Source: Opitutia bacterium
GTDB taxonomy: Bacteria; Verrucomicrobiota; Verrucomicrobiia; Opitutales; Opitutaceae
DNA length: 37,726 bases
Direction: 5' to 3'
NCBI GenBank assembly: GCA_025360615.1
Contig: JANYBX010000517.1
Coordinates: 1 to 37,726, forward strand
Part shown: positions 2,299 through 6,044 of the stretch, piece by piece
How the letters are laid out: each line of letters starts with the position of its first letter
Position numbering within the stretch: the first letter of the stretch is position 1
The notes under the pieces: model-generated
Told to the model about the DNA's origin: nothing
Database searches by the model: none
What the model saw: only the letters and a program-made list of their open reading frames with translations
Made by a program: the position numbers and the translations under genes

Positions 2299-4875
2299 TT
2301 ACGGCCGCACCACGAGTTGCGTGCGCTGCTCTTTCTTGAAATATTTTCCGGCAAACTTCGCGAGGTCGGCGATGGTCACCGCGTCGATCTTCGCGTCGTA
2401 GTTTCGCCACGCGTTCAGCGGCTGGCCTTGGAGCGTGTTCAACGTCGCCTGCAACGCACGCGATGAATTGGTCTGCATCGACTGGCGCTGGCCGGCCTTG
2501 AGCCGCGCCTGACAGCGGCGCAGCTCGATCTGCTCGACGCCGCCTGCCTGCACGCGCGCGATCTCCGCGTCGATCTCGGCGAGCACTTCGCCTTCCTTGC
2601 CCGGCTGCGTGCCGGCGAAAAAATAAAACATGCCCGTGTCGAGCCCGAGCACGCGGCCCGAGCGCACGAAATAGGCGAGGCCCTTTTCCTCGCGCACGCG
2701 CTCGAAAAGCCGCGATGCCATGCCGCTGAACAACTCGTCGGCCACTTCGCCCACGTAGTAATCCGGCGCGTGAACGCGCGTGCCGGGAAACGCCTGCAAC
2801 ACCACCGCCTGCTCGCGCGGTTGCTTTTCCACGAAGTCTCCGGGCTCCGCCGGCAGGGAGCCAGCCAGGCCGGCGAAACTGACGGCGCGGGGCGCCGCGG
2901 TTTTCGGCAGCTTCGCGAGAAACGCCTTCAGTTTCGGCACCAGTTTCTTCGCGTCGAAATCGCCCGCGACAGCGAGCACCACGTTCGGCCCGACAAAGAG
3001 CCGCCGGTGCAGCGCCCGCAGCGCGGCGGGCGTGAGCGCTTTCACCCCGGCCTCGTCGCCACTGGCGTCGAGCGCGAGGGGATGGATGCCGAAGAATTTT
3101 TTCCGCAGGAGCTTTCGGGCGAGCGTCACCACGTCGTCGTTGTCCTGCGCGAGCGCGGCGACCTGCGCGTCGCGCTCGTGGGCGAATGTCGTCGGCTTGA
3201 ACGCGGGCGCGAGCACGGCGTCGGCGATCACGGCGAGCGCGCGATCCGCATCCGGCGGGAGCACTTCGGCGGCGACGCCCAGGCTGTTGTTGCCCGCGAG
3301 GGGGTGAAACGAGCCGCCCACTTCCTCGATGAATTGCGCGACTTGCGCGGCGCTGCGTTTGCCGGCGTCTTTCGTGAGCATCGTGCTAAGCAACGACGTC
3401 GCCCCGCGGTGTCCGTTTTCCTCGAAGAGCACGCCGCCGTTGACCGCGAGTCGGAAGTGCAGGTTCGGCAGGTGCCGATCGATCTGCAGGAGGAGGCGCG
3501 CGCCGTTCGGCAGTTTGATTTCCTCGAAATCGGGCGTGGTTGTCCGGGCCTCTTCCGGCGCGATCACGGTCATCGCGGCGGCCGTGGGATTGAGTGAAAT
3601 CGAGGTGAGCCGCGCCGGCAGGAGATAAGTTTTCAACACCCGGCTCAGGCCGGCCGGAGTGACGGCGCGCAACTGTTCGAAATACGAGCGACTGTAGTCG
3701 AGATCGCCCACGACGACTTCCGCCGCACCGAGACGCGAGGCTTGGCCGCTCATCGTTTTGCGCGTGTTGATTTCGCCGACGACGACTTGGCGCAGGGCTT
3801 TTTTGAGCTGCGCGGGCGTGAAACCTTTCGTCGCGCAGCGCGCGAGCGTGCGCTCGATGGCGGCGATGGCGGCGGGGCGTTTGTCGGCATCAGCCGTGTA
3901 GCCGACGCAGAATAGGCCGCTGCTGCCGGGATTCCAACTCGACGCGTCGATGCTGTGCACGAGATCCGCTTTCTCGCGAACTTCCTGCCAGAGCACCGAG
4001 CTGTCGCCGCCGCCGAGCACGGTGGCGAGCAAGTCGAGCATCGGAGCATCGGCGTGCGTGAGGCCGGGGATCGGCCAGACGAGCGCGCCACGGGAGAGTT
4101 CGACATCCTCGAAGCGATGAAGAGCGCGCGGGGCGAGTTGCAACGGCTCGGCCGGCACGAGCACGGGGGCGAGGCGCACGCGCGGCGCAGCGCCGAAATG
4201 CGTCTCGACGGAGGCGCGCGTCGCCGCGAGGTCGATGTCGCCGACGATGACGACGACGAGGTTGTTCGGCACGTAGCGCGCGCGGTAGTAGTTGAAGAGA
4301 TCGTCACGCGTGACGGTCGAGAACACATCGCGGTGCCCGATGATCGGCTGGCGATACGGGTGCTCGCGAAACGCGGTCGAGAACAGCGCGTCCCAGAGGC
4401 GACTGTCGGGATCGTCCTTCGTCATCGCGATCTCGCGGAGGATCACATCTTTTTCCTTCGCGGCCTCGTCGGCGGGGAAAGTGGAATGCAGCACCGCGTC
4501 GGCGAGCAGGTCGATGGCGACGGCGGCGTGTTCGCTCGGCAAGTCGATGTAGTAAACCGTGCGGTCGAAGGTGGTGTAGGCGTTAATGTAGCCGCCGTGG
4601 GCCTGCACGGTCGCGGAGATGTCGCGGCCCGCGCGGCGCTCGGTGCCCTTAAAAAGCATGTGCTCGACGTAATGCGAGAGGCCCGCACCGAGGCAGCTGT
4701 CCTCGTGGATGCTGCCGGTTTTTACCCAGACTTGCACGGAGGCGAGCGCGGCGGAACGGTCGGGCTTGAGGATGAGCGTGAGGCCGTTGGACAGCACGGT
4801 GCGCTCGACGGGCTCGCGCCAAAACGGATCAAGGAGGCGGAGGTCGGCGGCGAGCGAGGCGGTGGGTTTCGGCAT
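2299..4875 (-). CDS. M16 family zinc metallopeptidase (two-domain, pitrilysin/PqqL-like)
   Basis: The 858-residue product has the duplicated M16 fold. The N-terminal half has the inverted zinc motif HYVEH (residues 68-72) and the third ligand Glu148 in ILREIAM, 76 residues later, so it should be catalytically competent. The substrate-shaping GGYINAYTTFDRTVYY segment follows the motif. The second half (from about residue 450, KLPNGARLLLQ) repeats the fold without a zinc motif, as expected for the partner domain that closes the chamber. I see no obvious signal peptide. ATG 4875 is preferred over an in-frame TTG at 4890. The gene lies 60 bp downstream of the Minf_1886 gene on the same strand, with a 7-bp hairpin between them. 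Such proteins degrade peptides; the substrate here is unknown. Confidence 0.9.
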   Translation of the reverse strand: MPKPTASLAADLRLLDPFWREPVERTVLSNGLTLILKPDRSAALASVQVWVKTGSIHEDSCLGAGLSHYVEHMLFKGTERRAGRDISATVQAHGGYINAYTTFDRTVYYIDLPSEHAAVAIDLLADAVLHSTFPADEAAKEKDVILREIAMTKDDPDSRLWDALFSTAFREHPYRQPIIGHRDVFSTVTRDDLFNYYRARYVPNNLVVVIVGDIDLAATRASVETHFGAAPRVRLAPVLVPAEPLQLAPRALHRFEDVELSRGALVWPIPGLTHADAPMLDLLATVLGGGDSSVLWQEVREKADLVHSIDASSWNPGSSGLFCVGYTADADKRPAAIAAIERTLARCATKGFTPAQLKKALRQVVVGEINTRKTMSGQASRLGAAEVVVGDLDYSRSYFEQLRAVTPAGLSRVLKTYLLPARLTSISLNPTAAAMTVIAPEEARTTTPDFEEIKLPNGARLLLQIDRHLPNLHFRLAVNGGVLFEENGHRGATSLLSTMLTKDAGKRSAAQVAQFIEEVGGSFHPLAGNNSLGVAAEVLPPDADRALAVIADAVLAPAFKPTTFAHERDAQVAALAQDNDDVVTLARKLLRKKFFGIHPLALDASGDEAGVKALTPAALRALHRRLFVGPNVVLAVAGDFDAKKLVPKLKAFLAKLPKTAAPRAVSFAGLAGSLPAEPGDFVEKQPREQAVVLQAFPGTRVHAPDYYVGEVADELFSGMASRLFERVREEKGLAYFVRSGRVLGLDTGMFYFFAGTQPGKEGEVLAEIDAEIARVQAGGVEQIELRRCQARLKAGQRQSMQTNSSRALQATLNTLQGQPLNAWRNYDAKIDAVTIADLAKFAGKYFKKEQRTQLVVRP

Positions 4876-4913
4876 GGAAAGACGGTGCAAGGGAATTCAC
4901 GGGACGCAACGGA

Positions 4914-4935: not shown

Positions 4936-5355
4936 TTACTTCTCCAGCGTGGCCGCGCGGCGCTTCGCGGGCTGGAATGGTTTCACAAACGCGTCGTCAA
5001 ACGTGTAAACGTCGGCGAAATCCTCGGGGCGGTCGCTCTCGGTTTTGGAAAACACGTTATACTCGATCAGGTTGAAAACGATGTCGCCGAAATCGCGGCA
5101 ACGCTTCACTCCCCAGGCGTTGAGCACGGTTTTCGTGAGCGGGCCGTATTGCTCGAGCGCGTGGGCGCGCAGCCCTTGGAGCAGCTCGGGACCGGATACA
5201 TGACGGGAGCGCTCGGCCCGGGCGGCCTCCTTCTTGCGAATCTCCTTCACCGTGTGGTCGAGGCCATGCCGCACAAAATCGTAGGCTTTTTTGTCGAAGC
5301 GCGCGTCTTCCTTGCAGATCAGTGAAACTATTTCGGCAAAATCCGGGTCTTGCAT
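4936..5355 (-). CDS. Minf_1886 family protein
   Basis: The 139-residue product resembles the conserved family named after Methylacidiphilum Minf_1886, which is common in Verrucomicrobiota and Planctomycetota and has no assigned function. Recognisable stretches are DARFDKKAYDFVRHGLDHT near the N-terminus, and GPLTKTVLNAWGV followed by DFGDIVFNLIEY in the C-terminal half. It has no signal peptide or membrane segment, so it is probably cytosolic. ATG 5355 is chosen because family similarity starts at MQDPDFAEIV; an upstream in-frame start at 5379 would add eight unconvincing residues. It may be cotranscribed with the M16 peptidase downstream. Its upstream side faces the Fur-like gene divergently across about 155 bp. 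Confidence 0.85.
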   Translation of the reverse strand: MQDPDFAEIVSLICKEDARFDKKAYDFVRHGLDHTVKEIRKKEAARAERSRHVSGPELLQGLRAHALEQYGPLTKTVLNAWGVKRCRDFGDIVFNLIEYNVFSKTESDRPEDFADVYTFDDAFVKPFQPAKRRAATLEK

Positions 5356-5510
5356 GTGGTGGCGGGAAAGTAGGCACACCCGTTGGCTGCGCGCAATCCT
5401 GAGGTCGCGTCCGGCCGGAATGCCAACTCTTTCCCTGAAAATCGCTGGCGCACCGGTATTGCGCTCGTAAAATTACTCTGAACCATGATTGTTACAAACA
5501 GGCTCCCTCA

Positions 5511-6044
5511 ATGATCGCTTCCACCCAAACCAATTCTCCGCTGGCCGCTGGTCAATCCACTGGTCTCAGCCCGATCGAGTCCGCTTGCATCAAACTCAAG
5601 GCCGCCGGGTTGCGCATCACCCAGCCGCGCCTCGCCATCCTCGCCGATCTGATCAAGCGAAACCAACCCACCAGCATCGAGCAGCTCCACGAGGAACTCG
5701 GCAGCGAAGCCTGCGACTTGGTGACAGTCTATCGCTGCATGGGCGCCTTTGAGGAAATCGGCCTCGTGCGCCGCAGTTTCTACCATAACGGCACCAGCCT
5801 CTACGCCATTAATTTGGGCGAGCCCACCCGCTACCACGTCGTTTCCAAAGCCACAAAGGAAGTCGAGGAACTCGATGCCGAGACCTCCGCCGAGCTACGC
5901 GGCACCCTGCACTCCATCGAGGAGAAATTGCGCGCGAAGGGCTACACGGCCGTCAGCCATATCGCCGAGTTTTTCGGCACTCCGCCCACCGCTGCCGGCA
6001 ACCGCGTGACCGCGGGCTCCGAGGCCATCCCGGCGTCGGAGTAA
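5511..6044 (+). CDS. Fur/PerR-family transcriptional regulator, metal ligands degenerate
   Basis: The 177-residue product has the Fur winged helix: LKAAGLRITQPRLAILADLI, then SIEQLHEEL and the recognition-helix region DLVTVYRCMGAFEEIGLVRR (residues about 28-90). A dimerisation-like domain follows. Where Fur, Zur and PerR have an HHHH-x2-CxxC segment, this protein reads TRYHVVSKATKEVEEL (about 106-121), with only His109. The C-terminal CxxC is absent too. SHIAEFFG (149-156) keeps the late His. It may therefore sense something other than a zinc-stabilised metal signal, or bind metal differently. The direct upstream region has TTACAAACAGG at 5492-5502, identical to the flank of the palindrome at 1100-1120, so autoregulation through that motif is conceivable. 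The N-terminal 20 residues and C-terminal 20 residues look like flexible extensions. Confidence 0.85.
   Translation: MIASTQTNSPLAAGQSTGLSPIESACIKLKAAGLRITQPRLAILADLIKRNQPTSIEQLHEELGSEACDLVTVYRCMGAFEEIGLVRRSFYHNGTSLYAINLGEPTRYHVVSKATKEVEELDAETSAELRGTLHSIEEKLRAKGYTAVSHIAEFFGTPPTAAGNRVTAGSEAIPASE

Follow-up and report, generated by a model that had tools for sequence, protein, structure and literature searches.

The window, a stretch of 37,726 nucleotides from contig JANYBX010000517.1 of an Opitutia bacterium, encodes a Fur-family protein in which the DNA-binding half is kept and all three known Fur metal sites are eroded. We class this protein with the Fur fold family and do not count it among the metal-sensing Furs. 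Taken jointly, the sequences would describe a dimeric, metal-independent repressor with a Fur fold that regulates its own gene, a reading whose chances we put at about even.

That the protein is a Fur-family regulator without the usual metal residues, as an earlier note on this DNA had proposed, was borne out. The open reading frame of 177 codons matches Pfam FUR over residues 32-126 with 45.3 bits (cut-off 23.1), the AlphaFold2 model made with 53 orthologues has a mean pLDDT of 84.6, and Foldseek and VIA-align both place Fur-family structures at the top. Both marks of the superfamily were found, i. e. a FUR domain by sequence and by fold, and a winged-helix recognition helix with the TVYR core. 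The note had also described the DNA-binding half as intact, and the core of the recognition helix is indeed invariant: in the 53 aligned orthologues no exchange occurs at V71-C76, T72-R75 included, nor at R35 and R40 ahead of the helix, and 27 columns are invariant altogether. The N-terminal peptide MIASTQTNHPL changes its codons between relatives but hardly its residues, which is unusual for the flexible arm of a DNA-binding protein. In the AlphaFold2 model the peptide is of low confidence, and its frequency among the relatives is inflated, as MIASTQTN was one of the six search patterns by which they were collected. The positions of all features are given in Table 1.

Table 1. Features of the regulator gene and its surroundings in the window.
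Feature	Position	Strand	Remark
M16 peptidase gene	2299..4890	-	marks the conserved locus
Minf_1886 family protein, divergent neighbour	4936..5379	-	marks the conserved locus
Weak match to the leader inverted repeat	5479..5496	.	7.8 bits, one good half
Fur-family protein, 177 aa	5511..6044	+	ATG to TAA; without His-rich segment and both CxxC pairs
N-terminal peptide MIASTQTN[HS]PL	5511..5543	+	residues conserved, codons not
C68 (5712-5714) and C76 (5736-5738), nearly invariant Cys	5712..5738	+	orthologue alignment
Recognition helix of Fur by homology, residues 70-82	5718..5756	+	V71-C76 invariant in 53 orthologues
Place of lost His cluster, residues 104-109	5820..5837	+	window keeps H109 alone
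Place of lost first CxxC, residues 112-115 (SKAT)	5844..5855	+	alignment
Extended dimerization helix, residues 123-142	5877..5936	+	predicted 20-residue helix
7-residue insertion, residues 130-136	5898..5918	+	alignment placement; exact place uncertain
H150, Fur H125 by alignment	5958..5960	+
Place of lost second CxxC, residues 157-160	5979..5990	+	alignment

The 80 orthologues that were collected are 51-72% identical to the window protein and are labelled as Opitutaceae, Opitutae or other Verrucomicrobia (one as Akkermansia). Within the genus the gene was matched in 13/13 genomes, with one match partial and one containing internal stops. In the family the orthologue profile matches 106 of 120 genomes, a number in which canonical relatives and weak hits on other genes of the Fur family are included (loci L196-L218 were left out of the reading). 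Counts out of 107 refer to rows of the window type, not to species, since several organisms are present from two collections (L156 and L005, for example, have the same upstream DNA). They leave out L085 and L155, which are the window again, and L151 and L152, which are other Fur-type genes; L152 appears next to L001 and L132 in the outgroup set, and the paralogues L113 and L130 are shown apart from the 107 rows. The 44 canonical rows were taken from the class-level matches. Fast-evolving relatives without the cysteine pairs also occur in the family (L113, L130, L229, L237 and L238); the helix spacing described below is 22 in the first three of them.

The structural site S1 of Fur consists of four cysteines (PMC5940780). 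The regulatory site S2 is formed by H33, E81, H88, H90 and E101, and the second site S3 by H87, D89, E108 and H125, plus Q111 through water (PMC4506495). At the places aligned with S2 the window protein has P53, A99, R107, H109 and E120. At those of S3 it has T106, Y108, S126 or A127, and H150, of which H150 is the only sure counterpart of a Fur ligand. In the neighbourhood of the Fur histidine cluster H109 stands alone (TRYHVVSKAT, aligned with HDHMVCVDT of 1mzb). The translation contains no CxxC at any position, and its three cysteines are C26, C68 and C76; site S1 is thus missing as well, as it is in some true Furs. The earlier claim that the His-rich segment and both CxxC pairs are gone is right for the window protein, and for the CxxC pairs it holds for the whole type: none of the 107 rows has either complete pair (C112 together with C115 in 0/107, the tail CxxC in 0/107), whereas each pair is kept in 43/44 canonical relatives. 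C112 alone is retained in 50 of the 80 relatives and is Ser in the window.

As leftover histidines the note had listed 60, 92, 109 and 150. All of these are present, and H134 had been left off the list. H109 (107/107 window-type rows) and H150 (104/107) are nearly invariant, yet both are ancestral, being found in 35/44 and 43/44 canonical relatives, respectively. H60 occurs in 103/107 window-type rows and is also the commonest residue at its place in canonical relatives (25/44); H92 is not conserved (66/82 rows, one row being a paralogue). By alignment H109 corresponds to Fur H90 and H150 to Fur H125, i. e. to ligands of two different metal sites, each with most of its partners gone. Because they are frequent in canonical relatives and map to two different sites, H109 and H150 look like leftovers in this alignment rather than parts of a new cage. 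A cage built from H60, H92, H109 and H150 was set aside, as H92 varies and the other three are common in canonical relatives.

It is nevertheless conceivable, if unlikely, that the protein has remained a metalloregulator with a site, rebuilt or reduced, made from H109, E120 or D122, H150, E153 and perhaps H60, in which the metal would be held weakly or with open coordination positions. The conservation of the three histidines would fit such a site, and D122 and E153 are the commonest residues at their places in every window-type group. That H109, H150, D122 and E153 are still conserved also counts against a metal-free protein, which would not require them unless they are structural. However, the same residues are common in canonical relatives, so that no new role is needed to account for them, the two histidines match ligands of two different sites, and possible partners vary among the 80 relatives (E120 in 50/80, E99 in 36/80, His107 in 10/80). 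The two proposals of the note, another signal or another metal site, fare differently. A signal different from metal is supported indirectly, by the erosion of all three sites in a gene that is otherwise strongly constrained; a different metal site finds little support.

That the gene is decaying and without function is scarcely credible. Fast-evolving copies (L113, L130 and L229) and the partial and interrupted matches in the genus would be in line with decay, but the reading frame is open in the window, the 27 columns stay invariant, the N-terminal codons vary while the residues remain, and the locus is conserved. Since a full CxxC pair of either kind is absent from all 107 rows and the core of the recognition helix does not vary, the window gene is, as judged from its relatives, not a damaged copy.

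The loss of the cysteines goes along with a change in the dimerization helix. The spacing from D122 to G144 is 22 in 107/107 window-type rows, 15 in 6/6 Cys4 orthologues, which are relatives of the same family that retain all four structural Cys, and 15-17 in 44/44 canonical relatives. Ten further Cys4 orthologues at the locus have a spacing of 15 in all cases, and eight further, diverged window-type rows have a spacing of 22 and at most one of the structural Cys. The paralogues L113 and L130 show a spacing of 22 as well and have no such cysteine pair. The added stretch is seven residues long, i. e. one heptad, and lies inside the predicted helix 123-142, where nearly all of 82 rows have hydrophobic residues at positions 129, 133, 136 and 140, with the 4-3-4 spacing of a coiled coil. 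For E. coli Fur a cofactor at the Cys site was reported to be necessary and sufficient for dimerization (PMC12538065), and this is the rationale for reading the two changes together: in the Opitutaceae, the coincidence of cysteine loss and heptad insertion suggests a helix that has taken over from the zinc clamp.

On a tree from which the trait columns were left out, cysteine loss and insertion require three changes each, and they are probably one evolutionary event. Hence there is no independent replication, and the link between them is suggestive, not proven. Of the window-type rows 35/37 fall into one group (support 96/88), outside of which lie the long-branch rows L246 and L221; a single origin of the window type is compatible with the data (p-AU 0.453). 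Next to this group stand four Cys4 orthologues with two to four His left (support of the join 91/84, unstarred). A single path of losses via the Cys4 orthologues was dropped, as the tree places these four beside the window type. The position of the window type next to His-keeping Cys4 orthologues, together with the eight changes needed for the trait of having at least two His, indicates that His erosion probably occurred more than once. The insertion is not strictly needed for life without the Cys site, since both Pseudomonas aeruginosa Fur and the protein at L141 lack the site and have no insertion. In the latter, from another family, C115 and the tail CxxC are gone together with most of the His cluster; L142 from the same genome keeps its Cys.

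The genes around the regulator are conserved to a considerable extent. Among the 80 loci and the window, the M16 peptidase cluster was present in 73/81 and the divergent Minf_1886 gene in 65/81. These counts are lower bounds, because many loci stop at contig ends, and they come from a home-made ORF picker that missed the Fur ORF itself in 3/80 loci. The Minf gene was seen in 13/15 of the window-type loci L083-L097, and in none of the nine canonical loci L104-L112 were such neighbours found within the 2-3.5 kb available there. The Cys4 orthologues number 16 (L098-L103, L239-L245, L247, L250 and L251) and have the Minf gene alongside in 16/16. All of them retain the four structural Cys and the short helix, and their histidines are lost to different degrees: the His cluster is present in L240, which has no N-terminal peptide; the peptide is found in L239 and L243, together with four and three His, respectively; L242 and L244 have three and four, and the remaining eleven have one or two. 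L239 and L240 are canonical Furs at the same locus as the window type.

Compared with known systems, the nearest relatives are the canonical Verrucomicrobiota Furs (e. g. L104, L118, L239 and L240), which have the same fold and recognition helix but keep the His cluster, the Cys4 site and the short helix. Among solved structures the best profile match is P. aeruginosa Fur (1mzb, 6h1c). It has the same fold and likewise lacks the structural Cys (CVDT; PMC12538065), but it keeps the His/Asp cluster (HDH) and has no heptad insertion. Campylobacter jejuni Fur (4ets, 6d57) regulates some genes in an apo mode, without metal in the regulatory site, but its Cys4 zinc and a metal-responsive mode are kept (PMC5940780). 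PgFur/Har of Porphyromonas gingivalis likewise lacks the regulatory His motif and is thought to be active in the apo form; in contrast to the window protein it keeps both CxxC pairs, which are needed for zinc and stability (PMC6613475, PMC4222909). Defined by the retention of both CxxC pairs and the loss of the His motif, the PgFur/Har subfamily would include the Cys4 orthologues L099, L101 and L245 and exclude the window protein. PgFur/Har is closer to the Cys4 orthologues (e. g. L098 and L245) than to the window protein.

The two studies of PgFur/Har disagree on heme binding, and a heme-responsive regulator, similar to the reported PgHar or to Irr, is very improbable in our case. PgHar, which has no regulatory site, was reported to bind hemin (PMC4222909), but in a later study no binding of heme to full-length PgFur was found (PMC6613475). 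Rhizobium Irr uses HxH for heme (PMC4222909); the window protein has neither this motif (R107-Y108-H109, with His107 in 10/80 relatives) nor a Cys-Pro motif. NCBIfam IrrA, although among the nearest models, scores 29.9 bits, far below its cut-off of 150. Literature searches, chiefly of open-access papers, found no report of a group of the window type, and we are not aware of any Fur in which all metal sites are gone and the helix carries an insertion.

Another possible input is thiol chemistry. In a redox sensor of this kind, oxidation of C76 in the recognition helix, of C68 just before it, or of both would switch DNA binding, which we consider improbable as the actual function. C68 is found in 105/107 and C76 in 106/107 window-type rows (the misses are a gap at each of the two positions plus a Gly at 68), C76 lies inside the predicted helix 70-82, and a gene for an Fe/Mn superoxide dismutase is nearby in 42/81 loci, in 39 of them directly after the regulator and convergent (counted by hand). 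However, C68 is also present in 23/44 canonical relatives and C76 in 5/6 Cys4 orthologues; thus the two cysteines did not arise with the loss of the metal sites. Position 76 is Ser in diverged relatives, L221 and L246 for instance. The dismutase gene, moreover, is convergent and is not beside the regulator in the window, where a sialic-acid esterase-like gene takes its place. The convergent arrangement itself is found in many Opitutaceae (e. g. L003:5608-6363).

The leaders of the orthologues contain an inverted repeat, TGTnAC-N6-GTnACA, with a preference for pyrimidine in the left and purine in the right half in the symmetric model. With whole protein clusters held out, at least 10 bits were reached in 22/81 leaders but only in 7/1620 shuffled and 1/81 reversed ones. 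A second hold-out split gave 26/81 leaders against 6/1600 random 80-mers from the loci, although one of its six training sets converged on another motif. A repeat score of 182.7, compared with 35-53 for shuffles, was not used, as training and test had been done on the same related sequences; the hold-outs replaced it. That its position differs between clades (about -19, -27, or -50 to -68) speaks against mere shared descent. The repeat is weak in the window (7.8 bits) and weak or missing in many orthologues, and the six Cys4 orthologues tested scored 0.1 to 4.2 bits at best. For this last reason our confidence in the joint reading was lowered slightly, to the even chances stated above. As a sequence pattern, the repeat fits self-repression by the window-type regulator but is no proof that the regulator itself binds there.

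Exact patterns of the repeat, including a stricter one, gave no site in the window's genome, and the stricter pattern was found once each in 2/19 related genomes. A looser pattern gave 17 sites in 16/120 family genomes, compared with 3 for the reversed control; none of the 16 loci examined out of these 17 had an orthologue or the marker neighbours nearby. Two of the 17 sites lie beside what we take to be phosphate genes, a Pit-type transporter (L182) and a PhoB-like regulator (L185). A Pho box was considered, but the central bases pair as an inverted and not as a direct repeat (direct identity 3-6%, 15-17% expected), a comparison that is weak because the model was forced to be symmetric. Across the 80 loci (751,423 bases), 12.5 bits or more were reached at 26 places, of which 24 lie in the 130 bases before the regulator gene; these 24 are circular, as the model was trained there, and the other two equal the number found in one shuffled copy. 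Other target genes of the repeat were not found in the own genome, the related genomes or the 80 loci. A different element, CTCGCC or CTGGCAAA, recurs about 40-50 bases before the start (e. g. in L009, L020 and L053) and may be part of an Opitutaceae promoter.

The mechanism that we consider most likely, as inferred from the anatomy of the protein, is that of a self-regulating, metal-independent repressor. Instead of Zn(Cys)4, the longer helix would hold the two subunits together. The dimer would bind its operator, the inverted repeat of the leader, without metal and repress its own gene, thereby keeping its own level low. DNA binding could be constitutive, i. e. set by the amount of protein, or it could be tuned by a non-metal signal; the first candidate for such an input would be thiol redox at C68/C76, the identity of the signal being a guess. 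More tentatively, and at less than even chances, one may see here a line of Fur proteins that gave up metal altogether within one bacterial family, exchanged the zinc clamp for exactly one added helical heptad, limits itself and responds to a new non-metal input, which could be thiol redox at C68/C76 or another ligand.

Fur proteins are usually taken as metal sensors, and annotators would be tempted to label the window protein an iron regulator. A conserved branch from which the known metal sites are gone suggests instead that the Fur fold can persist for another use. Iron control in the window's genome would then be better sought elsewhere, for example in the second Fur-like gene beside sufC. 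This gene (L001:1444-1878, contig C152) is the sole other Fur-family match in the genome and lies 47 bases upstream of sufC; its product also lacks CxxC, keeps an HxHFHDD segment and may be the iron or peroxide sensor. The graded orthologues at one locus would allow tests of how a cofactor can be lost without losing the dimer. If the reading of a metal-free lineage is true, these graded losses would make the switch replayable in the laboratory.
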